Below are positions 6,436 to 62,987 of a DNA stretch of 64,000 nucleotides, piece by piece. This stretch comes from Gracilariopsis chorda. Lineage: Eukaryota; Rhodophyta; Florideophyceae; Gracilariales; Gracilariaceae. Location of the stretch: contig NBIV01000061.1 of assembly GCA_003194525.1 (NCBI GenBank), forward strand, positions 248,001 to 312,000. Reading direction: 5' to 3'. Positions within the stretch are counted from its first letter, which is position 1; each line of letters starts with the position of its first letter. Position numbers and translations under genes: made by a program. The notes below the pieces were generated by a model that did not search any database, was not told the origin of the DNA, and was given only the letters and a program-made list of their open reading frames with translations.

Positions 6436-7077
6436 GGTTCCAGAAGGACTTCAATAACCAAAATAGGAACAAATAATGCACGGAAATGAAGCAGAGTGAG
6501 GGACTCGATGCTAAGAATCACTATCAGAATAGACCAAAGAGCTGTTCGAGAGGTGCAGCTTTGGACTGATAGCGGATGTCACACTATGAAGGTGATACTG
6601 GAGTGGGGTATTCTCAACACTCAACAGCAAAGGCGCCAGCGGAGACCGTGTAACCAAGTCTCAACGCTCGTCCAGACGCGTCTGGTGCGCGACTCACAGG
6701 TGGAGTTCGGGTACTGGACGCCCGGAGTATACTCACAAGTGGCTCTGAAGCGCACTCGGAAAAGAGAATAAAAGATGAAACTTCGTAAAAGCGGGCGCAC
6801 TGACAGGAGAAACTACCTCTGCTACCCTAAGGGTTGAACCCCTGGACCCTGGATGCTCTCTCCAGGTGCGAGGTGCGATTTTCTTCGACCTGCCCTACTC
6901 TGCACACTTCATCAGTAGGGTGCTCAATCCGTACGAAACTTCCCAGGGAGGTTACTAACAAGCGCGATATGCTTTCAACAGTTGACACCTGCTGGTCTCT
7001 TGCAGGATATCAGCTTGATCTTACGCGGGCACGCAAAAATAAAGAAGTTGAAACGGAGCGACGTCAGCAAGTATCGA
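6436..7077 (-). other. E1 5' leader with conserved RNA module (6791-7010)
   Basis: Non-coding stretch between PBS and gag. The module at 6791-7010 (minus) has the blocks shared by every copia leader here: tgcaagagacc, gtgaaagca-type, cctccctggga, gtacggattg, two adjacent small hairpins, and gtcagtgcgcccgc at its 3' edge. Downstream of it is the A/B-type segment gagtatactccgggcg. Confidence 0.75.
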
Positions 7078-10877: not shown

Positions 10878-11525
10878 TCAATATTTGCAGACGTCACTCC
10901 GTTTCAACATCTTTTATTTTTTCGTGCGCGCGTAAGATCGAGCTGATATCCTGCAAGAGACCAGCAGGGGTTAACTGGTGAAAGCATATCGCGCTTGTTA
11001 GTAACCTCCCTGCGACGTTTCGTACGGATTGAGCACCCTACTCGTGAAGTGCGCGGGTAGGGCAGGTCGTAGAAAATCGCACCTCGCACCTGGACAGAGC
11101 ATCCAGGGTCCAAAGGTTCAACCCTTGGGGTAGCAGAGGTAGTTTCTCCTGTCAGTGCGCCCGCTTTTACGAAGTTTCATCTTTTATTCTCTTTTCCGAG
11201 TGCGCTTCAGAGCCACTTGTGAGTATACTCCGGGCGTCCAGGACCCGAACTCCGCCTGTGACTCGCGCACCAGACGCGTCTGGACGAGCGTTGAGATTTG
11301 GTTACACGGTCTCCGCTGGCGCCCTCGCTGTTGAGTGTTGAGAATACCCCACTCCAATATCACCTTCATAGTGTGACATCCGCTATCAGTCCAAAGCTGC
11401 ACCTCTCGAACAGCTCTTTTTTTTTATTCTAATAGCGATTCTTAGCATCGAGTCCCTCACTCTGCTTCATTTCCGTGCTATATTTGTTCCTATTTTGGTT
11501 ACTGAACTGCTTCTGGAACCAATTC
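10878..11525 (+). other. E3 5' leader with conserved RNA module (10948-11165)
   Basis: The module runs from tcctgcaagagacc to gtcagtgcgcccgc. Visible stems: CCTGG 11089-11093 with CCAGG 11103-11107, and AAGG 11113-11116 with CCTT 11123-11126. A larger hairpin, CCTAC...GTAGG, lies near 11035-11060. Confidence 0.75.
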
Positions 11526-12002: not shown

Positions 12003-12224
12003 TGTACCAATACGTTGCAGTACGCTACAGACTCCTCTCCTGTTACGTTAGAGTTGGTGATCGTTATCTATCTACTTACAACGATAGGATAGAAGATATA
12101 GAACTTTACCTTTATGTGGAGAAGCTAGCACTACATAATGGCTTGAACAGCTGATTCTGGCAGAGCTCGGCCAGACATCAGCCACAAGTACATTCTATAC
12201 CTTCGTATTTGCTTTTGTGTTACA
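12003..12224 (+). repeat. gypsy 5' LTR
   Basis: 222 bp, TGTACCAATACG ... TTGTGTTACA. It is followed by TTTGGTAGCA; its TGGTAGCA would pair with a tRNA 3' end TGCTACCA (initiator tRNA-Met in many eukaryotes), a likely PBS of about 8 nt. Confidence 0.9.
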
Positions 12225-12290
12225 TTTGGTAGCATCTTTTTGAAGTTCCCACCGCTCGGAACTCGCTCAATCTCGCTCAGTTTACGCAAT

Positions 12291-13614
12291 GCCGTTGGCC
12301 TCAGAGAGCTTGATAGCTACTAGATCGAAAGCAGCCAAGCTTACGAGATCTAAATCAGGTGGAGCTTCGTCTTCAATGCAGCCGGAGTCCACCTCTTGCT
12401 AAGAATGCCACGTCTTCTTCAGCTCGCTCAACACAAATCGCCAACAATGAGCAGCCCAGCGCTCTCTCCGAAGTTCGTTCACTCCCGCCAGTGACAAACT
12501 CAGACGACTTCGCAAGAGCGGTAAGTGGGCCCGTCTTGTTGCAAATGCTTGAAACACAACAAGCGGCCATCGAAGCACTCAGGTCACAAATGTCCGCACT
12601 ACGCGGAAGTGACAATACCCATTCACGTTCGGTGCCAGCCATAGTGCAATGAAAAGGTAGCACCACCAGATGCAACAACCGCACAGCATGACCCATTGCA
12701 CTTGCCCTCTACGTTTCAGGAACAGTCAAAACCGAACCAGACGCCGTTGCAAGTCCTCAAATCGTCCAACTTTCTTCCCTACTGTGGCAAATAGCATGAA
12801 CGAAAATCAACGAAGGTTAGGTCATTCATTTCAAGCATTTACAAAGTGACCAATCTTTGTCGAGGACTTACCGCACGAGAAGAGGTTGATATCGCCGTCT
12901 GCCTCCTGTGTGATCACGCCGATCTTTGTTACAATCATGTAACTTTAACTGGAGAGCACTTTGCCTCTCTTGAACAGCTACATGCCGCCATGATCCAAGA
13001 GTTTGTCCCTGCAAACGAACACGCAAACGCTCGGCTCTCGCTAATCAAACTGCGAATGAACGGGTCACTTGAACCCCATATCTCGAAGTTCCGCGAGCTC
13101 ACCGATACTTGCGCAACGCCGATCAGTGAAGCCTTTACGTATTTCCAACTCAGTTTGCCAACCCTGTTTCGCAAGAAGCAGTCTGAAGCGGTACCCATCT
13201 GGACAGCCGCCATCCATGTCGGAAGTGTTCAACTTTGTCCGCACGGTGTACATCTCTGAGCGTTGGGAAGATTCTGGGAAGCATTCCCAACCTTCACGAC
13301 GGCAGGGATCGCACGCAAAGGACGTCAATCGCTCGCAACGTTCAGCCCGCCGTAGCACGAAACCGCTAAGTGCTGTGGCAATCAACAAAGATCCAGACGA
13401 CGAAACGGGTCCAGCCGATTTCCAGAAACATCTTGAGCTTGACACATACCGCACCCACGACCGCTGTATGAAATGTGGAAAGAAACCCGGGAGTGATCCG
13501 AAGCATCCTTGTCGTATGACAGTTGCTACTGCTTCCGTGCAGAAGCCGTGGAAGAACAAACCAAAAAAAATTAACCACGCCGCACGCCAGAGCGGCTCGT
13601 TCAGTTCGTGTTGA
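12291..13614 (+). pseudogene. gypsy gag region
   Basis: A start-like ATG at 12291 opens MPLASESLIATRSKAAKLTRSKSGG. A Gag-like region 12846-13200 has FASLEQLHAAMIQEFVPANEHANARLSLIKLRMNGSLEPHISKFREL, the retrotransposon Gag (RTN-Gag) pattern of chromoviruses. A cysteine-rich CMKCGKKPGSDPKHPC near 13466-13515 is the likely nucleocapsid zinc-binding segment. Gag would form the particle shell and bind RNA. The region is broken. Confidence 0.75.
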
Positions 13615-13619
13615 CACCC

Positions 13620-14332
13620 TTCCTCGCCTTTCTGCAGGCAATGCGCACTACTCCGAGGACATAATTTACCACGCATATGTCAACGCTGTCCGTGTTGCGT
13701 TCCACCTGGACCCCGGCGCTTCGCACGCATTTATGTCCCCGGCTGCCGCAAAACGATGCGGACTCCAACTCCATTCTTCTGCATGCGCTCACGCGCAACT
13801 TGGCGATCACAGCTTGATTCCTGTGTTGCATAAAACTTCAGCCAAAGTGGATCTGCACGAAACTTCCGCCACAGTATCTCTCTTTGTCATCGAGATGAAC
13901 GAAGAGCATGACGGTGCTCCTCTCATGACAGTAGGACATGAATGGTTGGGCGTACTCAACCCGCACGTAGACTGGAAGACACACACAATGAACATCAAGC
14001 GCGCAGATGGTTCAATGGCTACAGTGTATCCTCGTCACAATACGGTGGCGTCAGCGCGACCAAAGCCTCCCACGATGAAAACAATCTCCTTTAAACGACT
14101 GCGCAAGCGTGTCAAGCAACGAGCTTGTGAGTTGTATGCACTGCGGTTACAACCGTCAACCGCTGCTGACTGTCATCCGGAATTGGCAGCCATCGTTGAC
14201 ACTTTCCGCGATTTCTTCAAGGAAGAGCTTCCGTACGAGCCTCCCCCACGCCGGGAACAGGACTTTGAGATAAATCTCAAACAGGGTCAGCCACCGCCAG
14301 TTCGTCCAGTCATCCGATTTCCCAATGAATAA
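13620..14332 (+). pseudogene. gypsy protease region
   Basis: VRVAFHLDPGASHAFMSPAAAKRCGL near 13690-13760 is a retroviral-type aspartic protease start (D-x-G-A/S around the active Asp). MTVGHEWLGVLNPHVDWKTHTM near 13930-13990 is the second conserved block (G.dWL...p.iDw...t). The end of the stretch, DFFKEELPYEPPPRREQDFEI, is the spacer before RT seen in Ty3/gypsy Pol. Confidence 0.85.
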
Positions 14333-14353
14333 CTTCAGCTGCTTTGCAACACC

Positions 14354-15319
14354 TTGGATGAGCTCCTCCGCAAAGGGCCCATTCGACCCTCTTCCTCCCC
14401 GTTTGGTGCACCGGTGTTTTTTGTCAGGAAGAAGAGTGGTCAGTTACGAATGGTATGCGACTATCGCGCTCTCAATCGAATTACCATACCTGATTCCACC
14501 CCATTACCCCTCATCGACGAGGCCCTGGATCAAGTTGCCGGCGCGAAAGTGTTCTCCCAGATTGACTTAGTAGGTGCGTATCATCAGATGCGCATTCGTG
14601 ACGAAGATTGTCACAAGACAGCCATCCGAACCCGCTTTAGATCGTTCGAATGGAAGGTCGTATGCTTTGGACTAACGAATGCTCCAGCCGCCTTCTCGAG
14701 GCTGATTGCATCAGCACTGAAGGACGTAAATGGAGAATATCTGGTTCTGTATATTGATGACATATTGGTATACAGCAAATCGATAACAGAACACAAAGAG
14801 CATCCACGAATGGTGTTCGTGGCTTTACGTAGGCATAAACTATACGCAAAGCTCAGCAAATGCGCTTTTGGTGTGAAGGAAGTAGACTTTCTTGGGTTTC
14901 ATGTGTCGGATATGGGAGTATCCACCCAGGAAAGATTAACTGCATCAGTCAGAGACTGGCCTACCACACAGAATTTACGTCACATTCAACAGTTTGTGGG
15001 CCTCACGAACTTCTATCGCCGCTTCATTAAGGGCTACGCTCACATACTCCGGCCACTGACAGACCTACTGCGATCACATGAGTTCAAGTGGACCGCCCAA
15101 CAGGAGTCAGCGTTTGATGCAATCAAGCTACCCCTAACCACCGCTCCCGTCCTCGCCCATTATTCTCCAGACAAGACGTTGGTCTTGACAACTGACGCCT
15201 CGACGTACGCAGTCGGGGCGACCCTCTTGCAAGACGGTCACCCCATCCCATACCTTTTCCATCGCCTCTCGGATACTGAGTCGCGATGGACACTGGAGAC
15301 CAAGAACGCCTTGCTCTAA
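14354..15319 (+). pseudogene. gypsy reverse transcriptase and RNase H region
   Basis: RT blocks in order: GPIRPSSSPFGAPVFFVRKKSGQLRMVCDYRALN, DLVGAYHQMRI, FRSFEWKVVCFGLTNAPAAFSRLI, then YLVLYIDDILVYSKS with the YIDD catalytic box near 14750-14765. LGFHVSDMGV and FVGLTNFYRRFIKGYA follow. RNase H starts at LVLTTDASTYAVGATLLQDG near 15180-15240. This domain order (RT-RH before integrase) defines Ty3/gypsy. Confidence 0.93.
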
Positions 15320-16227
15320 TGATTGCCCTTCGTACTTGGGCCCCATATCTACGTGGCCGACATTTCGATTTACGCACTGACCATGAAGCGATTCAGTATC
15401 TGCATTCGAAGCCGAAGCTTACCGGCCGCCAGTGCAGATGGCTCAACGAAATTCAGGAGTACACCTTCGACGTCGAACGCATTGCCGGACGGTTGAACGT
15501 TGTACCAGATGCACTCAGTCGAAGACCCGACCACGCCCCCCACCTTCGCTCCATCGGGATACAGATCGCTAACCTCTTGGCATCAGTCCGTAATGCCTAC
15601 AGTGACAATTCGTTCGCTACCGAAATCCTCCGCTCGCTTCGCGACACCTCTTACGAACCGTCGGCTCTTGTCCGACGCCATCAACGCAATTTTCGAATCG
15701 CGAATGACATGCTGTATTGGACTGGCGCAGGTTCGCTCAGATTGTGTATTCATTCAACCGATCTTCGTCATACAGTGACGCAGTACTTCCATGGAATAGG
15801 ACATGTACCTGCCGACAAAGCCTATTATGCGGCACAGAAGTACGTATTCTGGCCTCACATGTATGAGATGATCTCCAAACACGTACGCAACTGTCGCGAC
15901 TGTCAGACGTACAAGTCATCAAACCGCCTCCGGCAAGGGTTGCTACAACCTCTCCCTATCCCAAACCGTTGCTGGGAGATCGTAACCTTTGAATGCCTCA
16001 CGGAAATCCCAACTTCCAATGCCGGACATGACGCGATCTTAGTGATGGTTGATAAGCTGTCCAAACAAGGAATTTTCGTACCGACTACGAAGACCACCAC
16101 AGCCCGAGAAACTGCCCATTTGTTCCACGTTCATCTGTTTGCTATCCAAGGTGTACCGCATACACTGGTCAGTGATCGCGATCCCAAGGTAACCTCGAAC
16201 TTTTGGAAGTCCTCGTCGAACTGTTGA
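15320..16227 (+). pseudogene. gypsy RNase H end and integrase region
   Basis: The RNase H tail LRTDHEAIQYLHSKPKLTGRQCRWLNEIQEYTF and RLNVVPDALSRRP lies at 15370-15530. The integrase zinc finger HGIGHVPADKAYYAAQKYVFWPHM...CRDCQTYK (H-x3-H, C-x2-C) is at 15790-15915. Core stretches GHDAILVMVDKLSKQGIFVP and LVSDRDPKVTSNFW are at 16025-16200. Confidence 0.9.
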
Positions 16228-17043
16228 ACATCCGCTCCAATTTTTCTACCACTAACCATCCCCAGACTGATGGACAGTCCGAGAATATGATCCGAACGCT
16301 CTCTTTCAATGCAGCAGTCGATGGTGCAGAAGAATCCGACGGAATGGCACCTGTCTCTCCCTACAGTTCAATTTGAGTATAACGCGTCGAAACATTGTTC
16401 TACAAAGCTTGTGCCATTTGAAGTAGAGCTTAGATTCATTCCGCATACGCTTGTCACTCGTCAGCTCGAAGACTGCGGCGCTCGAGCACAGGAAGCATCG
16501 GATGTCGTTGATCGCCGCGACGCGCTGCGTGCCCTGACTAGGGATCATCTCGCTGAAGTGGCTGCCCACAAGAAGTACTATGCAGATCAGCGCCACAGAG
16601 ATGTCTCGTTCCAGACAGGCGATCTGGTTCTCCTTGAAGCCGACTCACTCTCGCTTGCGCGCAGCGCCACTTTGCCGAAGAAGTGGCAGCCTCGATATAT
16701 TGGACCCTTCCGGATTGTGGATGTTTTTGGCCCCGTGACATACCGTATTGAGCTCCCCCCCGCCATGAAGCGAGCCCACGACGTCATTCACGTGTCAAAG
16801 ATGAAAGCGTATCACGTTGGGAATCACGACACTCTTGATATTGTGATCAACAACGACGGTGAAGTCGAGCAAGAGATAGCAGATGTGCTGGAAAAGCGCA
16901 AGTTTCAAAGACGTGTTTTCTACCTCGTGTGATTCACCAACGACACTCACGATGACACGGTTTGGCTCCCGACAACTTCGCTGAAGAACTGTAAAGACGC
17001 AGTTCGAAAGTTCAACCGGAAAGGAAAGCCAATGGGACATTGA
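16228..17043 (+). pseudogene. gypsy integrase C-terminus and chromodomain-like tail
   Basis: ADQRHRDVSFQTGDLVLLEADSL, KKWQPRYIGPFRIVDVFGPVTYRIELP and HDVIHVSKMKAYH are the GPY/F module of chromovirus integrases (16570-16810). The remaining tail to about 17043 is acidic, then tryptophan-containing, as in chromodomains that follow this module, which is why I call the element a probable chromovirus. Confidence 0.7.
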
Positions 17044-17064
17044 CTCATCCAAGGACGGGGTGAG

Positions 17065-17286
17065 TGTAACAATACGTTGCAGTACGCTACAGACTCCTCT
17101 CCTGTTACTTTAGAGTTTGTGATCGTTATCTACCTACTTACAACGATAGGATAGAAGATATAGAACGTTACCTTTATGTAGAGAAGCTAGCACTACATAA
17201 AGGCTTGAACAGGTGATTCTGGGAGAGCTCGGCCAGACACCAGCCACAAGCACATTCTACTCCTTCGTATTTGCTTTTGTGTTACA
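17065..17286 (+). repeat. gypsy 3' LTR
   Basis: 222 bp, TGTAACAATACG ... TTGTGTTACA, preceded by the purine-rich tract aaggacggggtgag (17051-17064). Confidence 0.92.
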
Positions 17287-22974: not shown

Positions 22975-22992
22975 GGTTATGGGCCCAGAGCG
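22975..22992 (+). promoter_or_regulatory. primer-binding site of E4
   Basis: GGTTATGGGCCCAGAGCG, a perfect complement to the tRNA-iMet anticodon arm core CTGGGCCCATAACC. Confidence 0.85.
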
Positions 22993-23760
22993 TCGACTTT
23001 TTGCAGACGTAGAGCTCTACTAATATCTCTTTGGATTCTATGAAGACTGGTTTTTCTTTTGCGCAGGTACGCGTTGCGTTGCGAGCGAGCGAATCTTATG
23101 GGAATCGAGTGGCAGTGGTGAAAGTAGGCAAAGCGTCCAGGGACTCGTCTCTGGTAAACCGACCTGGGCCTGTTCCGATCCCTGCTTCTTTGCTTCAGCG
23201 CACAAGGAAGACCGCGCTATTTTCCGGCAAGCGACTAGAAAGGGTTAACTGGTGAAAGCTTATCAAGTCAGCTACTAGCCTCCCTTGGAAGTCTCGTACG
23301 GATTGTAAAGCCCCCCGCTCTGAAGTGCGCAGAGCAGGATTGGTCGCAGAAACTGCATCTCACCTGGAGATAGTTACCAGGGACCAGAGGATTCGGACCT
23401 CTAGGGCAGCGGGGATAGTATCTCCTGCCAGTGCGCCCGTCTTAAGAAGTTTTATTTGTGTCCAGGCTCGTATCAGTACGTACTGTGAGTATACTCCGGG
23501 CGTTGAGTACCCGAACTCCGCCTGTGATCGCGTACGAGACGCGTCTCGACAAGTGTAGTAGACTTGGTTACACGGTCTCCGCTGACGTTTTCGCTGTTGA
23601 GTGTTTGAGATTCTTCTCCGCTCCAGTTTTTCTGGTTCTTTGTGTAACAGAAGCCTTGAAATCCCTCTTTCGGCTTCAATACATTGCGTGGATATCACTA
23701 CCTTTGGCATCTACATAGTTGCTTTTGTTGCTTTTCTTTGGTTCTAGTCCCGTAGGAACC
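22993..23760 (+). other. E4 5' leader with conserved RNA module (23221-23441)
   Basis: A 768-nt leader. Module stems: CCTGG 23363-23367 with CCAGG 23377-23381; AGAGG 23386-23390 with CCTCT 23398-23402; GCTCT...AGAGC near 23320-23338. It contains upstream ATGs, one at 23040, ahead of the gag ATG. Confidence 0.78.
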
Positions 23761-27962: not shown

Positions 27963-28741
27963 TGTTGGCAGTAGTACCTGTGCTGTCACTGAAAACCAAA
28001 TGTTCCGGGGAGCATGGGCTGTTTTAGAGGGTACCTCTGCAAAAGCGCATATGCGCGTGTGCGCCAACCCAACGTGAAACTGGCTTCTGATTGGCTACTG
28101 CAAATGTACATATGCAACGTAGTGCGTACAAGTGGTATGGCATAACTGGATCGGTTGGACACACCCACGTGTCCAGCTACTACAGTGGTCACAGTGTACG
28201 TTGTGTGCAGGGGATACTGGTGAAGTGGTTGACAGCTGGTACAAGTGGTACAGCAGTGGTTGGTACAATGGTAAGGTGCGCATGCACTGTCAACAGGTTT
28301 ACACATGCACGGGTATATTGATGACGTGGGTGTTGTGTGCATTGCCACATGATGACATGGCACTAACACCACAGGTTACGTGCCGACTTACCGTGACGTG
28401 TTGACTTACCGTGATGTGTTGGCATGTGCTGGCGTGTGTTGGAGTCGTGAATTTGTGCCTTGTCATGGTCATGTGTATCCACGTAACTATTACGGAACGT
28501 TGGTGCGTTGGTGTGCGTTGATGTAATGAGGTTGTGCTGAGCTGGCTATGTCATGTTAGATGATGATTGGTAGTATTGACTGTCCCTGCTTAGTGGTTTA
28601 GGTTTTACTTGTAGTTGGTGTTCCCGCGCAATTCGAGTTTAGAGTGGTATATAAGATGTGTCTGAAGGACATCCAAGTAAATCCAAGCCAGAGCTGGCGA
28701 ACTTTCCTTCCATCCCCTCAACTTCCTTTCAACTTTCAACA
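27963..28741 (+). repeat. LTR-C, 5' LTR of E6
   Basis: 779 bp, TGTTGGCAGTAGTACC ... AACTTTCAACA. TATA-like ggtatataaga near 28646-28656. It has the two-unit direct repeat cttaccgtga(c/t)gtgttg near 28386-28420. Confidence 0.92.
28038..28101 (+). promoter_or_regulatory. shared U3 block (LTR-C example)
   Basis: Palindrome GCGCATATGCGC at 28045-28056, then AACCCAACGTGAAAC and TGATTGGCTACTGCA (inverted CCAAT box). The same block occurs at the same relative place in LTR-A, B and D (for example 24911-24975 minus, 42586-42652, 47053-47117), although the rest of LTR-C does not resemble them. Confidence 0.75.
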
Positions 28742-28755
28742 GGTTATGGGCCCAG
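28742..28755 (+). promoter_or_regulatory. primer-binding site of E6
   Basis: GGTTATGGGCCCAG, 14 nt perfectly complementary to tRNA-iMet CTGGGCCCATAACC. The next bases (CCCCGC) differ from the lineage-1 PBS (AGCG), as if the match ends here. Confidence 0.85.
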
Positions 28756-29960
28756 CCCCGCTGACCGCTGCCACTATCCCTTTCCGTATCGTTCGTCTGT
28801 CGCCGCTTTCCCTCACCGCCGTTCATCCGTTTCGCTGTTGTTGCCTCTTTCGTCGTTGCGTCGGGTGTCTTGATCCCATTGTTGGTCGGTGTTGGTCATT
28901 CTCCTTTGGTTTGCGTTCCTCTCTGAGGGCGTTGTGGTGGTAGCGGTTCGACGTTTACTTCCTATCGTTGTTGAGTTGGGCCTCCGTTGTTGCCCGTGTT
29001 GTCGATCGCTATCTACTTTGTGTGTGACACTCCCTCTATCTTGTGTTTTGGGATCCCCGAGTCGTTTGTCGGGGCGTATCCGTGAGGTCGAGTCGGTCTA
29101 GTTTCGAAGTCTGGGCTCCGTGATCGTGTGCTCAGCAGTTGTTTGTTTTTCGTCTTTCTTAATCATCATCTGGTGTCCAGTGCGACGAGCGATTGATCCG
29201 GGTTACTTTGGGTGATTCCAGGTATCCGGGGACGTGAGCCTGGCGGCTTGAACCAAAGCGGGTGTACTGTCGAGCGGCTTCCCACCGGTCCATTTGGACA
29301 GATAACGGTGACGGTCGTTAAGACCTGGTAAGTTCAGCGGGTGCATCTGTGGACGGGGTGCCGTGGCGTACTGCGCTGGTGCGGGTGATTGAATTATTTG
29401 TTTTGATCCTGACTGCGTGTCGGGATTCTTGGGCTGTTGCGAAGGTATTCCATAAGGAGCTTTTGATCCGTGCATCTGACCCTTGGGCGTTTGTGCGGGG
29501 AGGTGACGTGGCGTAGGCTGACCTCCTTCTTAGGATCAGGCCGCGTGTGACCTTAAGTGGTTGCACGTTAGCAGCGTACTTTGGTTGCCATAGTAGCTTC
29601 AGTTTCGAGGTCGCGCAAGTTCTTGCAAGAGGCCAGAGAGGGTTATACTTGGTGAAGGCATATCTTGGGTCATTAACCATCCTCTGGAAGCCTCGTAGAG
29701 AGCGACGCATCTTCTCCTTAGACGTAGGAGAGGGAAGACAGAAGAAGACGTCTTGTACCCGGAGCATCTCCCGGGGCCAGGTGTCCGACACCCTAGGGTA
29801 GCGGAGGTAGTTTCTCCCGTCAGTGCGCCCGAATTTGAAGTTTTGTTGTTGGTTTTGTCGTTGTTTTTGTTTTTATTGTTGTCGTTGTTGCCATGTTTGT
29901 ACTACTTAAGTGCCGTAGGTCTTTCATCGCACCTGTGCTGTTTGTTGACATCTACCAAGC
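28756..29960 (+). other. E6 5' leader with conserved RNA module (29621-29831)
   Basis: A 1.2 kb non-coding leader, pyrimidine-rich at first. Module stems: CCCGG 29758-29762 with CCGGG 29771-29775; GGTGT 29780-29784 with ACACC 29788-29792. A gttgtt-rich stretch near 29840-29890 separates the module from the gag ATG. Confidence 0.78.
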
Positions 29961-31385
29961 ATGGATTCATTCGGTGGCATCAAGATTGAAAAGTTGGGCG
30001 AGGATAACTTCCATGTATGGAAGCAAAAGGTTGAGTTGCTGCTTGCACTCAAGGACCTCGATGACCATCTTGAATCAACCAGGCCTACGGACGATGACGA
30101 GTTGTCAGCGTGGAAGAAGAAAGACGCCAAGGCCAGGGCTGTTATTGGTCTCAGCATCAGTGATGAGGATTTGGACCATGTGAGGCATACGGAGAATGCT
30201 GCGGAAATGTGGAAAGCCATTTGCGATGTGTTCCAGCGTAAAACGCTGCTCAACCGAATCAATGCAAGACGTGCCTTCTACACAGCCAAGATGCGAGATG
30301 ATGAGAAAATGTTACACTTCATCAATCGTGTTTGTCATCTTGCATCGGATCTGAAGAGCATGGACGTAGTGGTTGAGGAAGAAGACATCGCTATGGCAAT
30401 CCTATGTGGGCTACCAGACCGCTTCGAACACCTCATTGTCGCTATTGACACCACGATTGGTGATCGTAAACTCGATTTACAGTTTGTGAAGAGTCGTTTG
30501 CTGCAAGAGGAACAGCGAATGAATGATCGTGCCAAGGAGGAGTCCGGAAGTGACACGGCTTTGGTCGGTGCGCAGTCACGAAAGAAGTCCATGGTGTGCT
30601 ACTACTGTGGTAAGAAGGGGCATATCCAGAGAAACTGTTTCAAGAGAGAACGTGACGAAGCTAGCAAAGAGCAGAGTGCTGCCGCAAACCCAGCTGTGCA
30701 GACCGATCTCGGCAACGAGAAACGAGGATGTGACAGTGACTCTGACTTTGTTTGTCTCATTGCGACAGGTTCTGTGGAAGAAAGTATCAGTGACTGGATC
30801 ATTGACTCTGGTGCCACCGCCCATATGACGTATGACGAGTCCATGTTTGACAGTTATAGCAAAAGAGAGTCTGCCGGTGTGAGTATCGGCAATGACTCGA
30901 AGCTGGAGTCTCTTGGTCATGGCAGTGTCCACCTCGATCTCGCTGTTGAAGGGCGTGAGAGCAAGTGCCGGTTGGGTGAAGTAGTGCACGTACCGAATTT
31001 AAGGTATCATCTGCTGTCAGTATCTGCGATGTGTGACCTGGGTGCGCGAGTGGTGTTTGACAAAACCAAAGTATGTGTATACAAAGGCAACACCATTATC
31101 GCCCAGGGCCGTCGCATCAAAGGACTGTACTACCTATGTACCGCGATTGAAGTACCAGAAGACATGGAGAACGCACTTGTGACTGACCTGTCACTATGGC
31201 ATGCTCGAATGGCTCATGTGAATGTGGATGGTATCAAACATATGGCTCGTAACGATGTTGTGTCAGGGCTGAAGGTGGACTTGAATCAATCGATGGATGT
31301 GTGTGACTCTTGTGTAGTGGGAAAATCTACACGTGCTCCAACTCCCAAGCAAGGGGGGAACGGGCTTTGCACCCATTGGACCTAG
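29961..31385 (+). CDS. E6 Gag-protease-pre-integrase reading frame (lineage 2)
   Basis: A 474-codon frame. N-terminal copia Gag: MDSFGGIKIEKLGEDNFHVWKQKVELLLALKDL, AICDVFQRKTLLNRINARRAFYTAKM and HFINRVCHLASDLKSMD...AILCGLPDRFEHLI. The CCHC zinc knuckle CYYCGKKGHIQRNC starts at about residue 213. The protease site is WIIDSGATAHMT with DSGA at about 282-285. The pre-integrase finger LWHARMAHVNVDGIKHM...CDSCVVGKST runs about 411-450. E7 has the same frame with the same length. It would make the particle protein and the protease that processes it. It overlaps the start of the integrase frame. Confidence 0.9.
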   Translation: MDSFGGIKIEKLGEDNFHVWKQKVELLLALKDLDDHLESTRPTDDDELSAWKKKDAKARAVIGLSISDEDLDHVRHTENAAEMWKAICDVFQRKTLLNRINARRAFYTAKMRDDEKMLHFINRVCHLASDLKSMDVVVEEEDIAMAILCGLPDRFEHLIVAIDTTIGDRKLDLQFVKSRLLQEEQRMNDRAKEESGSDTALVGAQSRKKSMVCYYCGKKGHIQRNCFKRERDEASKEQSAAANPAVQTDLGNEKRGCDSDSDFVCLIATGSVEESISDWIIDSGATAHMTYDESMFDSYSKRESAGVSIGNDSKLESLGHGSVHLDLAVEGRESKCRLGEVVHVPNLRYHLLSVSAMCDLGARVVFDKTKVCVYKGNTIIAQGRRIKGLYYLCTAIEVPEDMENALVTDLSLWHARMAHVNVDGIKHMARNDVVSGLKVDLNQSMDVCDSCVVGKSTRAPTPKQGGNGLCTHWT

Positions 31386-32373: not shown

Positions 32374-32378
32374 CCTAC

Positions 32379-33441
32379 TGTCGGTCGCTAATGTTGCGGA
32401 ATGTGCCAGATATTGCTGGAACACACGTGTAGAATGTTCCAGTAGTGTCTAGCACATTGCACGCTTTGTTGGCCCAGCAAAGACTACAGTATTTTAGTGA
32501 TGCTGGCGCAAATTGTCGCTTTATTATTGGTTAGTGTGCAGCTCCAGAGGTCTCTAGAAGCCAATGGAGTAACCTAGACGCACACATGAGTAACTAGCAA
32601 GTAGAAATGCGTATTTGGCTCATTTGTAGTGCCTCTAAACACTATAAAAAGAGGTTCTGAGCTTCGGACTTCGGTCTGAACTCACCTCAACAATCTACCA
32701 ACATCTAAGCCCCACCCCCTATCAACCTTCAGCCACTTCAACTATCATCAACAACCATTGAGGCGTTCGCCACTGGATAAAGGGCTTCTAGTGAGGCGTG
32801 TGCCGATAGTTGTCCAATAGGGTGGGGAAGTACCGTCGCTAAGACCGGTTGAAGCGCCTTAGGCGTGGACGGGAGACGGGTGGTGTGTACCAAAGGTGTT
32901 TCTGTCGTCTGTGAGCCCCACCGGAGCTTCGCTCGGATAACGGTGTCGGTCGAAAGACCTGGTGATTTTCGGACGGAAGTACTTGACGGGAAGCTATCCG
33001 CAGGCGACGTGCCGTGCAACATTTCCTGCAAAGGGCCAGCTTGGGTATAGAGTGAAAGCATATCCTGCTGTTAGTAGCTCTCCTTGGGAAGCCCTGTAAG
33101 GATTGTATGCGCCTGCTTCTGGTTAGTGCAGAGGTAGGTAGGCTGCAGAATCCACTTCACATCCGGAATGTCTGACCGGAAGCCGAGGGTCTGACCCTTA
33201 CTGATCCTTGACATAATTCTTGGGTTGCGCGCCGTTTCAACAAAGATGTTAAGAAGTTTTATTTGGGGATTGAGCCTCTTGCTCTCCTTAGTGTTGTTTT
33301 ATTTCATCGAGTGGGTTTAGTTCTTTTGATTCCACTGTTTTCAACTTGTTTTGGGGCTTTTAGCTACGAAGAGCACCCTTTTGGCTTTTATTATTACAAA
33401 TTTTTGGCTCCCTGCGTCACCGTCCCGTGATGGCGTCCACA
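32379..33441 (+). repeat. solo LTR-E in E6, carrying the leader RNA module (33021-33240)
   Basis: A 1063-bp insert with ends TGTCGG ... CCACA and target duplication CCTAC at 32374-32378 and 33442-33446; E7 shows the uninterrupted target. It has a TATA box (ctataaaaagagg, near 32641-32653), a downstream capped-leader-like region, no PBS and no coding region, which fits a solo LTR of a family not otherwise present. Inside it, 33021-33240 matches the copia leader module: stems TCCGG 33162-33166 with CCGGA 33176-33180, and AGGGT 33186-33190 with ACCCT 33194-33198. A small non-autonomous element is the alternative. Confidence 0.72.
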
Positions 33442-33446
33442 CCTAC

Positions 33447-37889: not shown

Positions 37890-38636
37890 ACTTCCAGAAG
37901 GAGCTGAAACACCAATGAATATATACTTCTAAGCAGAGTGTGGGACTCAATGCTTTTCAAAATCCGATTACGAAGAGAGGGAAAGTGTTGAATCGGAGGG
38001 TCAGCCAAGAACTTGCACCTGAGATCACACTAAGATATGAATACTGGAGTGGATTGATGACAGCACTCAACAGCAAGGGCGCAAGCGGAGACCGTGTAAC
38101 CAAGTCTCAACGCTCGTCCAGACGTGTCTGGTACGCGAATCACAGGCGGAGTTCGGGTCCTCGACGCCCAGAGTATACTCACAAGTGGCTCTGAAGCGCA
38201 CTCGGAAAAGAAAATAAAAGATGAAACTTCGTAAAAGCGGGCGCACTGACAGAGGAAACTACCTCCGCTACCCTAAGGGTTGAACCCCTGGACACTGGAT
38301 GCTCTCTCCAGGTGCCAGGTGCGATGTTCTTCGACCTGCCCTACTCGACGCACTTCGAGAGCAGGGTGCTCAATCCGTACGAAACGTCCCAGGGAGGTTA
38401 CTTACAAGCGCGATATACTTTCACCAGTTAACCCCTGCTGGTCTCTTGCTGGAAATCAGCCCGATCTTTGTGCGCTGAAACCAAAGAAACAGGGATCGGA
38501 ACAGGCGCAGGTCGGTCTACCAGAGACAAGTCCCTGAACGCTTTGACTACTTTCACCTCTGCAACTAGGTCTCCACAATATGCGCATCGCAAAAATAAAA
38601 GAAAGTTAAATAAGAGCGACGTCTGCAATATGTCGA
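37890..38636 (-). other. E5 5' leader with conserved RNA module (38237-38455)
   Basis: A leader of about 750 nt on the minus strand. The module carries CCTGG/CCAGG-type and GGGTTCAACCC-type hairpins and the gtacggattg block. It is closest to the E1 and E3 leaders. Confidence 0.75.
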
Positions 38637-44296: not shown

Positions 44297-45035
44297 TCGA
44301 TATTTTGCAGACGTCGCGCTCTTTTGACTTACTTTTCGTTGGATTCATCTTCTTGCGCAGATCATCTTTGCGAGTCTTGTGGAAGTATTTGGTGCTGTGG
44401 TGAAAGTAAGCAAAGCGTTCAGAGACACCTTCTCTGGTAAGCCGACCTGCGCCTGTTCCGATCCCGGCTCCATTGCTTTAGCGCACACAGATGACCGCGC
44501 TATTTTCCTGCAAGTGTCTAGCAGGGGTTAACTGGTGAACGCTTATCGCGACAGCTACTTACCTCCCTGGGACGACACGTACGGATTGTAAAGCCCCTCG
44601 TTCTGAAGAGCGCAGAGCAGGGTAGGTCAAGAAAAATGTCGTACCTCACCTGGAGAGAGTTACCAGGGTCCAGGGGTTCAACCCTTAGGGTAGCGGAGGT
44701 AGTTCCTCCCGTCAGTGCGCCCGCCTTTACGAAGTTATTTTCATTTCCGAGTTTGCTTCAGAGCTACTCGTGAGTATACTCCGGGCGTAGAGGACCCGCC
44801 CTCCGCCTGTCATTCGCGTACCAGACGCGTCCGGACGAGCGTTGAGACTTGGTTACACGGTCTCCGCTGGCGCCCTTGCTGTTTAGTGTTGAGATACTCC
44901 TCTCCAGTTCCCTCCTCATAGTGTGACATCAGCTGCAAGACAATAGCTGTATCGCGATCAGGCATTCATATTAGCTTCTGGTCAAATTTCTAAGCATCGA
45001 GTCCCTCACTCTGCTTCATTTTCATTTCATTTGGT
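44297..45035 (+). other. E13 5' leader with conserved RNA module (44512-44723)
   Basis: The leader is mosaic: its first part (agtaagcaaagcgttcagagacacc) resembles the LTR-B leaders, while the module and tail (gggttcaacccttagggtag, gagtatactccgggcg) resemble the LTR-A leaders. It ends at solo LTR-C; the leader resumes at 45820. Confidence 0.75.
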
Positions 45036-47687: not shown

Positions 47688-48456
47688 TCGACTTTTTGCA
47701 GACGTCGCGCTCTACTAATATCTCTTTGGATTCTACGAAGACGGGTTTTTCTTTCGCGCAGGTACGCGTTGCGTTGCGAGCGAGCGAATCTTGTGGAAGT
47801 CGAGTGGCAGTGGTGAAAGTAGGCAAAGCGTTCAGAGACACCTTCTCTGGTAAGCCGAACTGCGCCTGTTCCGATCCCTGCTTCTTTGCTTCAGCGCACA
47901 AGGAAGACCGCGCTATTTTCCGGCAAGCGACTAGACGGGGTTAACTGGTGAAAGCTTATCTCGTCAGCTACTAGCCTCCCTTGGACGTCTCGTACGGATT
48001 GTGAAGCCCCTCGCTCTGAAGTGCGCAGAGCAGGATTGGTTGCAGAAACCGCATCTCACCTGGAGAGAGTTACCAGGGACCAGAGGATTCGGACCTCTAG
48101 GGTAGCGGGGATAGTATCTCCTGCCAGTGCGCCCGTCTTAAGAAGTTTTATTTCTGTCCAGGCTCGTATCAGTACGTCCTGTGAGTATACTCCGGGCGTT
48201 GAGTACCCCAACTCTGCCTGTGATCGCGTACAAGACCCGTCTCGACAAGCGTAGTAGACTTGGTTACACGGTCTCCGCTGACGTTTTCGCTGTTGAGTGT
48301 TTGAGATTCTTCTCCGCTCCAGTTTTTCTGGTTCTTTGTGTAACAGAAGCCTTGAAATCCCTCTTTCGGCTTCAATACGTTGCGTGGATATCATTACATT
48401 TGGCATCTACATAGTTGCTTTTGTTGCTTTTCTTTGGTTCTAGTCCCGTAGGAACC
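47688..48456 (+). other. E12 5' leader with conserved RNA module (47916-48135)
   Basis: A 769-nt leader almost identical to that of E4. The stems CCTGG/CCAGG and AGAGG/CCTCT are kept. Upstream ATGs precede the gag ATG at 48457, whose context is ggaaccATGtcc. Confidence 0.78.
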
Positions 48457-49600
48457 ATGTCCGACTCCGAAGTTGAAACGGAATCCACATCTGAAATGAA
48501 AATTCCTCGTTTCCATGGTAAGCGTGGTGATGATTATATGCTGTGGCGTCACCGTCTCCGTGCTGCATGCCGTATTAATGGTGTCTGGAATGTCGCGAAT
48601 CCCTCTGGGGTTCAGTTCAATCTACCACAGATATTTCAACTCAAGACACAACTACCGCAGGTAGTGGCACTGAAATAGCAACTCCCCGTATCATTGCGAA
48701 ACGAGAAAAGGCTTGTGGTATCATCATCTGTGCTCTTGGTGATGCTCCATTACGCGTAGTCATGGACGTGGATGATGATCCTGCACGTATTTTGCAACTC
48801 TTGGATGGACTTTATGCCTCCAATAGGACTGTATCTAGAATTGCAGTGGAGACACGATTGGTCCGAATGTCGTACAGCGGTGAGAACATGTCCAGCTATG
48901 TGGATCAATACACGGCATTGTTCGCTCAGTTAGACCGTATGGGCAAGGATGCTGCTATACCGGAGTCTCACAAGGCACCTATGCTACTTGCTTCCATTGA
49001 TCCGAACAGTTCGTTGGAGTCCACGGCTGCTGCACTTCGTACCAAGGACATATCGGAACTGACTTGGGACTATGTGGCAACCACTTTGATCGATGAGTAC
49101 AATGCTCGTCTGGTCAGTTCTTCTAGTTCTGGACGTACGCGAAGTCGAAAGAAGAACAGAAGCAAAGGTTCTGGTGGTTCACGTGTGTCCCAAAACTCCA
49201 GTCACACTCACATCAGGGATGGAAGTGACTCTGATGATCGGCCAAGTACAACTGGTAGAGCGTACGTGGTGTCCAGTAACCGGACTTATCACTGTGAATT
49301 CTGTGATCGTGATGGTCACACAAAGGACAGATGCCATGTGAATCCCGATAACCCAGATAATCACTTACCCAAAAGCATCCTGGACAAGCTTAACATCAAA
49401 TCGAAGAGCAAATCTGGGGCGTCCAAGTCTTGCAATAAACCGGCTGGTAGTTCATCAAAGATTGAGGTATGTGGTATGGCACTGGAAAAGTCTTCCATCG
49501 TACCTCCCGACAGTTGTGATATGGACACCTATGCCGATAGTGGTGCTACATCACACTTTTTCATTCGATGTCTGCGTTTATTCCCGAGTCTTTGCACAAC
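48457..49600 (+). pseudogene. E12 gag and protease start
   Basis: MSDSEVETESTSEMKIPRFHGKRGDDYMLWRHRLRAACRINGVWNVANPSGVQ opens Gag. It continues with GDAPLRVVMDVDDDPARILQLLDGLYASN, MSSYVDQYTALFAQLDRMGKDAAIPESHKAPMLLASIDPNSSLES and YVATTLIDEYNARLVSS. A basic stretch RSRKKNRSKGSGG, zinc knuckle CEFCDRDGHTKDRC (about 49292-49335) and YADSGATSHFF protease site follow. Gag would build particles around the element RNA. The region is broken in few places. Confidence 0.87.
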
Positions 49601-57797: not shown

Positions 57798-59002
57798 GCT
57801 TGGTAGATGTCAACAAACAGCACAGGTGCGATGAAAGACCTACGGCACTTAAGTAGTACAAAAATGGCAACAACGACAACAATAACAACAAAAACAACGA
57901 CAACAACAACAACAAAACTTCAAATTCGGGCGCACTGACGGGAGAAACTACCTCCGCTACCCTAGGGTGTCGGACCCCTGGCCCCGGGAGATGCTCCGGG
58001 TACAAGACGTCTTCTTCTGTCTTCCCTCTCCTACGTCTAAGGAGAAGATGCGTCGCTCTCTACGAGGCTTCCAGAGGATGGTTAATGACCCAAGATATGC
58101 CTTCACCAAGTATAACCCTCTCTGGCCTCTTGCAAGAACTTGCGCGACCTCGCAACTGAAGCTACTATGGCAACCAAAGTACGCTGCTAACGCGCAACCA
58201 CTTAAGGTCACACGTGGCCTGATCCTAAGAAGGAGGTCAGCCTACGCCACGTCGCCTCCCCGCACAAACGCCCAAGGGTCAGATGCACGGATCAAAAGCT
58301 CGTTATGGAGTACCTTCGCAACAGCCCAAGAATCCCGACACGCAGTCAGGATCAAAACAAATAATTCAATCACCCGCACCAGCGCAGTACGCCACGGCAC
58401 CCCGTCCACGGATGCACCCGCTGAACTTACCAGGTCTTAACGACCGTCACCGTTATCTGTCCAAATGGACCGGTGGGAAGCCGCTCGACAGTACACCCGC
58501 TTTGGTTCAAGCCGCCACGCTCACGTCCCCGGATACCTGGAATCACCCAAAGTAACCCGGATCAACCGCTCGTCGCACTGGACACCAGATGATGATTAAG
58601 AAACACGAAAAACAAACAACTGCTGAGCACACGATCACGGAGCCCAGACTTCGGACCTAGACCGACTCGACCTCACGGATACGACCCGACAAACGACTCG
58701 AGGATCCCAAAACACAAGATAGAGGGAGTGTAACACACAAAGTAGATAGCGATCGACAACACGGGCAACAACGGAGGCCCAACTGAACAACGATAGCAAG
58801 TAAACGTCGAACCACTACCACCACAACGCCCTCAGGGAGGAACGCAAACCAAAGGAGAATGACCAACACCGACCAACAATGGGATCAAGACACCCGACGC
58901 AACGACGAAAGAGGCAACAACAGCGAAACGGATGAACGGCGGTGAGGGAGAGCGGCGACAGACGAACGATACGGAAAGGGATAGCGGCAGCGGTCAGCGG
59001 GG
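57798..59002 (-). other. E7 5' leader with conserved RNA module (57926-58138)
   Basis: 1.2 kb, nearly identical to the E6 and E8 leaders. The module has the CCCGG/CCGGG stem. A gttgtt repeat lies between module and ATG (57860-57915, as aacaac on the plus strand). Confidence 0.8.
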
Positions 59003-59777: not shown

Positions 59778-60461
59778 ATTTCAAGGCTTCTGTTACACAA
59801 AGAACCAGAAAAAACTGGAGCGGAGAAGAATCTCGAACACTCAACAGCGAAAACTTCAGCGGAGACCGTGTAACCAAGTCTACTACACTTGTCGAGACGC
59901 GTCTCGTACGCGATCACAGGCAGAATTCGGGTACTCAACGCCCGGAGTATACTTACAGGACGTACTGATACGAGCCTGGACAGAAATAAAACTTCTTAAG
60001 ACGGGCGCACTGGCAGGAGATACTATCCCCGCTACCCTAGAGGTCCGAATCCTCTGGTCCCTGGTAACTCTCTCCAGGTGAGATGCGGTTTCTGCAACCA
60101 ATCCTGCTCTGCGCACTTCAGAGCGAGGGGCTTCACAATCCGTACGAGACGTCCAAGGGAGGGTAGTAGCTGACGCGATAAGCTTTCCCCAGTTAACCCC
60201 GTCTAGTCGCTTGCCGGAAAATAGCGCGGTCTTCCTTGTGCGCTGAGCAAAGAAGCAGGGATCGGAACAGGCGCAGGTCGGCTTACCAGAGAAGGTGTCT
60301 CTGAACGCTTTGCCTACTTTCACCACTGCCACTTGACTTCCACAAGATTCGCTCGCTCGCAACGCAACGCGTACCTGCGCGAAAGAAAAACCAGTCTTCG
60401 TAGAATCCAAAGAGATATTAGTAGAGCGCGACGTCTGCAAAAAGTCGACGCTCTGGGCCCA
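59778..60461 (-). other. inverted LTR-B-type leader with conserved RNA module (60001-60222)
   Basis: On the minus strand this is the start of an LTR-B element leader, from the PBS remnant atgggcccagagcg to ...aagccttgaaat, where E7 begins. It matches the leaders of E12 (47682-48358) and E4. No coding sequence. Together with 60462-61009 it is the spacer between E7 and E8. Confidence 0.85.
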
Positions 60462-61783: not shown

Positions 61784-62987
61784 CCCCGCTGACCGCTGCC
61801 GCTATCCCTTTCCGTATCGTTCGTCTGTCGCCGCTCTCCCTCACCGCCGTTCATCCGTTTCGCTGTTGTTGCCTCTTGCGTCGTTGCGTCGGGTGTCTTG
61901 ATCCCATTGTTGGTCGGTGTTGGTCATTCTCCTTTGGTTTGCGTTCCTCCTGAGGGCGTTGTGGTGGTAGTGGTTCGACGTTTACTTGCTATCGTTGTTC
62001 AGTTGGGCCTCCGTTGTTGCCCGTGTTGTCGATCGCTATCTACTTTGTGTTTTACACTCCCTCTATCTTGTCTTTTGGGATCCCCGAGTCGTTTGTCGGG
62101 TCGTATCCGTGAGGTCGAGTCGGTCTAGGTCCGAAGTCTGGGCTCCGTGATCGTGTGCTCAGCAGTTGTTTGTTTTTCGTGTTTCTTAATCATCATCTGG
62201 TGTCCAGTGCGACGAGCGGTTGATCCGGGTTACTTTGGGTGATTCCAGGTATCCGGGGACGTGAGCGTGGCGGCTTGAACCAAAGCGGGTGTACTGTCGA
62301 GCGGCTTCCCACCGGTCCATTTGGACAGATAACGGTGACGGTCGTTAAGACCTGGTAAGTTCAGCGGGTGCATCCGTGGACGGGGTGCCGTGGCGTACTG
62401 CGCTGGTGCGGGTGATTGAATTATTTGTTTTGATCCTGACTGCGTGTCGGGATTCTTGGGCTGTTGCGAAGGTACTCCATAACGAGCTTTTGATCCGTGC
62501 ATCTGACCCTTGGGCGTTTGTGCGGGGAGGCGACGTGGCGTAGGCTGACCTCCTTCTTAGGATCAGGCCGCGTGTGACCTTAAGTGGTTGCGCGTTAGCA
62601 GCGTACTTTGGTTGCCATAGTAGCTTCAGTTGCGAGGTCGCGCAAGTTCTTGCAAGAGGCCAGAGAGGGTTATACTTGGTGAAGGCATATCTTGGGTCAT
62701 TAACCATCCTCTGGAAGCCTCGTAGAGAGCGACGCATCTTCTCCTTAGACGTAGGAGAGGGAAGACAGAAGAAGACGTCTTGTACCCGGAGCATCTCCGG
62801 GGGCCAGGGGTCCGACACCCTAGGGTAGCGGAGGTAGTTTCTCCCGTCAGTGCGCCCGAATTTGAAGTTTTGTTGTTGTTGTTGTCGTTGTTTTTGTTGT
62901 TATTGTTGTCGTTGTTGCCATTTTTGTACTACTTAAGTGCCGTAGGTCTTTCATCGCACCTGTGCTGTTTGTTGACATCTACCAAGC
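61784..62987 (+). other. E8 5' leader with conserved RNA module (62647-62858)
   Basis: 1.2 kb leader of the E6/E7 type. The module runs from ttgcaagaggccagag to gtcagtgcgcccg, followed by the gttgtt stretch and the ATG at 62988. Confidence 0.8.

Follow-up and report, generated by a model that had tools for sequence, protein, structure and literature searches.

A structured leader RNA domain common to copia and Ty3/gypsy retrotransposons in the genome of the red alga Gracilariopsis chorda

The 64-kb stretch of Gracilariopsis chorda DNA analyzed here (the window) raises the question of why LTR retrotransposons that are otherwise unrelated carry what looks like one and the same RNA domain, and what that domain does for them. 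A preliminary description of the window, made from its sequence, had listed 11 copies of a module of about 220 nt and had placed it in every copia leader. All 11 were recovered, each on its stated strand; they align as a single homologous RNA domain of approximately 230 nt, and although the sites hold, the exact ends do not, the limits being slightly wider (for example, 10936-11165 and 29609-29833). A covariance model of the 11 copies matched exactly those 11 in the window at 159 to 246 bits, scores obtained on its own training set, and the search returned no further module copy in the window up to an E value of 10.

Ten of the copies belong to copia elements. Lineage 1, comprising the families labeled A and B in the preliminary description, accounts for seven: 10936..11165 (+), the A copy singled out in that description; 6790..7020 (-), also A; 38236..38466 (-), A-like; 44493..44725 (+), intermediate between A and B; and the B copies 23210..23441 (+), 47906..48137 (+; gag starts at the ATG at 48457), and 60000..60231 (-). 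Three copies reside in lineage 2, at 29609..29833 (+; gag starts at the ATG at 29961), 57925..58149 (-), and 62636..62860 (+); the element with the first of these has its 5' LTR at 27963..28741 (+). The hosts of these 10 copies were classed as copia by an RVT_2-type reverse transcriptase, a copia-type gag, and an integrase preceding the reverse transcriptase, as read from protein domains in window frames, with several copies being fragments placed by DNA similarity only. The eleventh copy, at 33010..33235 (+), lies within an LTR of a Ty3/gypsy family, designated F (formerly LTR-E). The claim that the module occupies every copia leader of the window was thus borne out for 10 copies and failed for the one given as 33021-33240, which sits in a gypsy-type solo LTR. 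Elsewhere in the window, 1748-2431 contains a PIF1-like helicase fragment, possibly Helitron derived or part of a host gene.

The solo LTR of family F (32379..33441, +) is 1,063 bp long, begins with TG and ends with CA, and interrupts a lineage 2 copia element; it is flanked by a 5-bp target duplication, CCTAC (32374-32378 and 33442-33446), and comparison with an uninterrupted copia copy near 55380 identifies it as an insertion. The 1.06-kb unit recurs across the genome (14 F loci were inspected), and one F element, that of locus L086, repeats with a period of approximately 5.68 kb. In locus L086, the frames encode, in gypsy order, an aspartyl protease, RVT_1, RNase H (RT_RNaseH), Integrase_H2C2, and rve, unlike the window copia frames, which carry RVT_2; the first frame of F has no Pfam match. 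Domain order, the TG..CA LTR, and the 5-bp target duplication place F in Ty3/gypsy, the proteins having been examined in this one element and other F copies having been placed by DNA or module similarity (LTR flanks were checked and present in eight divergent copies, and the remainder owe their placement to the module or to the search through which they were retrieved). The proposal that an otherwise unrelated LTR shares the module was therefore upheld: a model built from the 10 window copia copies alone, leaving out the copy at 33010, still detected that copy at 109.5 bits and scored 52 to 112 bits on 17 of 17 complete F copies, one F locus (L044) having been left out of the run, while a second F copy in L086, cut at its end, scored 64 bits. 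Because the F module lies downstream of a TATA box at 32643, it is presumably within the 5' leader of the gypsy F RNA. Within F, it is not clearly more conserved than the LTR flanks, with identities of 0.78 to 0.86 for the module and 0.77 to 0.88 for the flanks and a higher value for the module in three of eight copies.

Beyond the window, a two-block pattern (GTGAANGCNTATC and then TCCNNNNGANG) had 897 matches in the 91-Mb genome and its reversed control had none; 897 is a lower bound, since many copies of a third copia lineage differ in the core letters. The covariance model recognized 20 of 20 stretches fetched with this pattern, 40 of 40 fetched by DNA similarity, and 14 of 20 fetched with a looser pattern of the 13-mer only, the other six being taken as chance matches. 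The third lineage is diverse and was identified by protein domains in L083, L084, and L130 to L132; it also includes L085, in which the frames are decayed. The two copia coding lineages initially credited with the module are thereby joined by another, and its carriers comprise one gypsy family and three or more copia lineages. A set of 89 distinct copies was assembled from the window and 78 further loci; it leaves out exact or near duplicates, the six unmatched stretches, and long loci obtained later.

The module is not universal, being absent from the other gypsy elements sampled. A second Ty3/gypsy element in the window (12003..17286, +), with 222-bp direct repeats taken as LTRs, lacks the module, reaching at most 4.5 bits with the model; its frames are broken into pieces, and it is inserted in a copia remnant. 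Among the 150 best gypsy RNase H matches of the genome, those on contigs C1 to C63 numbered 20, and 7 of them had a same-strand pattern match 3.3 to 3.6 kb upstream, as in F, with the other 13 having none within 6 kb. Copia RVT_2 matches chosen likewise had a pattern match in 12 of 14 cases, including a window element for which the nearest match counted was the F copy, its own module lying 3.9 kb upstream. Module positions in these counts were the first 100 places of pattern matches; a few looser matches (C13, C20, C21, C24, and C48) went uncounted, none of them within 6 kb of a counted domain. Five stretches lacking the pattern (four gypsy and one copia), in which some 0.5 to 4 kb of sequence ahead of the domain was read, gave at most 5.2 bits. 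In viral contigs, the single pattern match had no covariance model support and was taken for chance, and the lineage 2 Gag-Pol had no relative there; copia relatives among the 120 matches listed include one from Chondrus crispus, at 44%. The homology of the copies and their distribution, as far as sampled, are established by these searches, as are their structure and position by the comparisons that follow.

Some module-bearing elements have LTR pairs that are 99% identical and have been amplified recently. On contigs C408, C573, C39, C123, and C731, modules form head-to-tail arrays with spacings of approximately 7.84, 5.68, 4.97, 2.83, and 4.93 kb, respectively; arrays at a constant spacing represent either tandem elements sharing LTRs or an effect of assembly. 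In the C408 and C930 arrays, a 14-mer from the anticodon arm of tRNA-Met is likewise repeated every 7.84 kb or so.

The fold of the module comprises a long arm (P2), a hairpin (P3), an A-rich linker, and three further hairpins (P4, P5, and P6), with the inclusion of a closing stem, P1, being less certain. P2 has a conserved internal loop, YYAG/GGAM, and its apical sequence is mostly GUGAANRCWUA. To evaluate this fold, the 89 copies were aligned without regard to structure, a consensus of 53 pairs was derived with RNAalifold, and events were counted along the tree. Compensatory double changes that kept pairing numbered 42, compared with 6.45 ± 3.0 (maximum, 15) when the same structure was imposed on 40 alignments simulated along the tree without pairing, a mean of 4.8 (maximum, 11) when each of the 40 simulations was scored on its own best structure, and 3 to 6 when the partners in the 53-pair fold were slid. 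The excess over all 40 simulations and the slid structures supports the selected RNA structure put forward in the preliminary description. The signal is strongest in P2 (14 events versus a simulated maximum of 6; upper part, 7 versus 2) and P5 (6 versus 4), whereas P3 and P4, with 4 events each, equal the simulated maximum, as does P6 (2 versus 2), and the base of P2 falls below it (1 versus 3). P1 is missing from the 53-pair fold, yet it is paired in 83% of cells by a model-fitted count. That count, for which the alignment favors structure by construction, gave 86.8% of cells paired (slid, 39 to 52%) and 525 double-change cells (shuffles, 175 ± 18); together with the tree counts, it confirms that the hairpins and compensatory changes described by eye are real. 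Pair-breaking changes were also common (322, versus 228 in simulations), as expected if many copies are dead.

The structure transfers between lineages. Of the cells in the 79 remaining copies, 81% are paired by a fold derived from the 10 copia copies of the window (slid, 39 to 50%), and folds derived from lineages 3, 2, and 1 alone pair 79%, 76%, and 61%, respectively, in gypsy F (slid, 42 to 43%); folds made for each lineage separately have only 6 to 25 pairs in common. Pairwise tests in the style of R-scape, the check that had been proposed for the covariation, gave a divided answer: paired columns such as 29-97, 198-211, and 19-106 were significant at an E value of ≤0.05, but nonpairing columns such as 9-144 and 19-252 also rose above the null. 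The pairwise null thus misses part of the deep lineage splits, and we rely on the structure-wide counts. Taken by itself, one copy has no greater folding stability than its shuffles (z = 0.02), so that the evidence for the fold is comparative and not energetic. The P5 cap in its commonest forms is GUYYRAC (GUUCAAC, GUCUGAC, and GUCCGAC), with AUUCGGAC in B, a cap that we take to resemble the T-loop motif. A reading of the B-box-like letters in P5 as a polymerase III internal promoter, or as a trace of a SINE, was dropped because the letters change between families while pairing stays. The letters of P6 are quite different in gypsy F, mostly CCUUGAMAUAAUUCUUGGG, and a hairpin is still possible by eye. 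Dimerization by a kissing loop through P3 found no support on inspection by eye, in which no self-complementary loop kept across families was seen.

How sharply the similarity between lineages is confined to the module can be judged from low-stringency blastn comparisons of seven leaders. In 11 of 17 cross-lineage pairs, the module alone, give or take approximately 15 nt, was aligned, and in 5 of 17, four of them involving gypsy F, nothing was found. The F module was aligned with only one of the six other leaders (L084; 75% over 138 nt), and its kinship consequently rests on the covariance model. In the one remaining pair, lineage 2 and gypsy F, blastn aligned an upstream block and not the module: this second common block, at 29227..29329 (+) in lineage 2 and 32864-32963 in F, is 72% identical over 104 nt (E = 2.4e-6). 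The lineage 3 leaders L083, L085, L130, L131, and L132 share an upstream domain of their own (137 to 237 nt; 69 to 85% identity), located approximately 5 to 255 nt upstream of the module; L084 is without it. When 30 of the 89 modules were placed on a tree, all nine from F formed a single clade (100/100) separate from those of copia, a topology that fits one acquisition. One old transfer, or a common third source, fits the data as well as repeated exchange does. One element (L112/L132), lineage 3 by gag, carries a module that clusters with lineage 1 (86/93), suggesting a possible exchange within copia.

The position of the module bears on the process in which it may take part. The primer-binding site (PBS) of the copia elements, GGTTATGGGCCCAG, exemplified by 28742..28755 (+), has an exact complement in the anticodon arm of host tRNA-Met(cat) genes; 4 of 15 pattern matches for the tRNA were fetched, and ARAGORN called all four tRNA-Met. 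Complementarity to the anticodon arm points to half-tRNA priming, which the copia elements here are predicted to use. Exactly complementary sites occur in the window at 22975, 28742, 38654, 44279, 47670, 59016, and 61770, and a same-strand module follows each of the nine PBS matches (these seven and two with a single mismatch). In gypsy F, the expected place of the PBS, directly after the LTR, is occupied by a different sequence, TGGTACTCTCGAGGAGGG. The module is thus 3' of the PBS in copia and 5' of it, inside the LTR, in gypsy F, and this placement on opposite sides makes a role tied to primer placement unlikely.

The leaders themselves are long, gag lying 895 and 1,283 nt from the presumed transcription start in the two families for which this length was determined, and the module ends approximately 80 to 320 nt before the gag start in the seven copia elements with a located gag. 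The preliminary description had entertained translation past a leader with upstream ATGs, a premise contradicted by our counts: ATG depletion prevails in the leaders examined. In the 930 nt that precede the module, lineage 2 contains a single ATG, that of the PBS, compared with 10.9 ± 2.6 in dinucleotide shuffles, and lineage 3 element L084 has none in 700 nt (shuffles, 5.6); gypsy F has none in the 337 nt from the presumed start to the module (3.4), whereas its U3 is not depleted (7 versus 5.2). Downstream of the module, B has none in 320 nt (2.7) and the 44493 copy has none in 307 nt (2.9). The upstream counts for L083 (0 in 700 nt versus 2.5; P = 0.06), the 44493 copy (2 versus 3.4), and B (1 versus 1.6) were nonsignificant. 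Gypsy F has two ATGs inside the module and two between the module and the LTR end, and lineage 2 has one between the module and gag, in a frame that overlaps gag. Transcription was assumed to start 30 nt after TATA-like boxes, with a fixed 700 nt being used for L083 and L084. In the depleted stretches (28679-29608, L084, and 32673-33009), antisense CAT and other triplets are not depleted.

The preliminary description recognized no known RNA family in the module, a judgment with which the Rfam search that it had called for agrees. The whole window had no match at the gathering threshold among 4,227 Rfam 15 families, and laxer scans returned only subthreshold matches for two window stretches and nothing at an E value of ≤5 for 20 diverse loci. 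A likeness to rRNA hairpins or to conserved regions of RNase P was not supported by any scan. In the literature searched, which included few subscription journals, we found no description of a leader RNA common to copia and gypsy elements. Cis-acting RNAs of retroelements are known as a kind; what is new, within the reach of our searches, is a 5'-leader domain that copia and gypsy elements have in common.

We suggest, at a probability of about 0.45, that the module would be a cis-acting leader RNA that engages host machinery, for export or stability of the transcript or for ribosome loading, and that has moved between superfamilies. It would act in cis on the full-length RNA; the machinery engaged would be that of transcript export or stability or that which loads ribosomes, these then scanning the AUG-poor leader, and the movement between superfamilies would have taken place by recombination. 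The Gag proteins of the copia and gypsy superfamilies are unrelated. Elements that differ in their primers, in where the module lies relative to the PBS, and in their Gags all keep it under selection, and the simplest reader common to them is the host. Presence in otherwise unrelated retroelements, a trait of transport elements if not a strictly defining one, is found here also. Red algae have few introns, and the four tubulin matches of the genome are long uninterrupted frames, so that the need for a dedicated export element would be smaller than in animals. (The top match to the host gamma-tubulin among the 120 listed is labeled Camelus ferus and probably reflects contamination or a faulty gene model; that one aside, the nearest match with a named organism is from the red alga Rhodosorus marinus, at 77% identity, and other matches reach 93%.) That a host factor is recruited, and from which side and by what route the module was transferred, are matters that we infer. 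A bolder formulation, in which a portable leader RNA has passed between copia and gypsy within one eukaryotic genome, exploits a host pathway of RNA handling, and is selected in both superfamilies, possibly after originating as a cellular RNA, is one that we hold tentatively, leaning slightly against it.

A packaging or dimerization signal, selected and paired by the nucleocapsid part of Gag as genomic RNA enters the particle, would agree with the location of the module in the leader near gag, upstream of the start codon by approximately 80 to 320 nt in seven copia elements, and with its presence in recently amplified elements with 99% identical LTR pairs. Recognition by an element's own Gag is harder to explain when two superfamilies with unrelated Gags share the module and the first frame of F has no Pfam match, unless the gypsy Gag reads the same fold or gypsy RNA rides in copia particles; the differing position relative to the PBS and the lack, by eye, of a self-complementary P3 loop kept across families also count against such a signal, which we consider less likely than a host-directed element but a strong competitor to it. 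The cis-acting sequences of Ty1 and Ty3 likewise lie partly at the 5' end, according to the available text of the source (PMC4974528), and speak in its favor. Ribosome loading near gag by an internal ribosome entry site appears improbable: the long, highly structured leader (895 and 1,283 nt) and the short distance from module to gag would suit it, but the depletion of ATGs upstream of the module points to scanning of the leader, and the tolerance of upstream ATGs expected, if not strictly required, of a bypassed leader is not seen. This objection is weakened by the facts that not every stretch is significantly depleted and that lineage 2 retains an ATG between the module and gag.

Sharp limits of homology between lineages and the lack of Rfam kin are what a foreign domain would display, and the module may conceivably be a structured RNA that was captured from a cellular or viral source and has since multiplied along with the elements, having little function of its own. 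Compensatory changes that keep pairing over deep lineage divergence require selection, however, and no copy was met outside an element in the DNA similarity and pattern searches, in which the surroundings were read for a minority of copies; we regard simple capture as quite improbable. That the structure is an artefact of alignment or composition, or that conservation acts on DNA only, is hardly tenable: a single copy does fold no better than its shuffles, but the double compensatory changes exceed those in all 40 simulations and in the slid structures.

If engagement of host machinery by the leader RNA is the correct reading, the module would be a host-directed RNA "adaptor" common to unrelated LTR retrotransposons. 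To our knowledge, RNA structures have been worked out for only a handful of LTR retrotransposons, chiefly Ty1 and Ty3 of yeast, and a shared domain of approximately 230 nt makes testable the question of which parts of a leader are specific to the element and which address the host. The findings suggest that RNA domains, in addition to coding domains and LTRs, may be traded between superfamilies, and the covariance model offers a direct way to seek the module in other algal genomes.

Several known systems resemble parts of what we describe. Drosophila copia and Ty5 are half-tRNA-primed copia elements with the same type of PBS, which matches the anticodon arm of their host's tRNA-Met by complementarity; we know of no shared leader domain described for either. 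The 5' cis-acting regions of Ty1 and Ty3 are 5'-terminal structured RNAs of a copia-type and a gypsy-type element (PMC5454406 and PMC4974528, in their available text); in the literature searched, no report of a domain common to Ty1 and Ty3 was found, whereas here the two superfamilies share one. The antisense mRNA of the Mytilus Steamer-like element-1 is an LTR element RNA with internal initiation, as far as the accessible part of the report describes it (PMC10974842); the ATG-depleted leaders that carry the module argue against a bypass of the leader of the kind seen with IRESs of LTR retroelements. Closest in kind are the constitutive transport element (CTE) of MPMV and the SERV-K/MER11 element, which are structured cis-acting RNAs of retroelements that use host machinery (PMC11379458), as is proposed for the module, whose export activity is putative. 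The likeness is one of kind, with no sequence kinship shown, and the locations differ, the MER11 element lying between env and the 3' LTR and the module lying in the 5' leader or LTR. According to the same source, a HERV-K-related virus has a MER11-derived transport element that can stand in for the MPMV CTE, and the acquisition of a transport element by an unrelated retroelement through recombination is a demonstrated precedent (PMC11379458) for the kind of movement between superfamilies that we propose.
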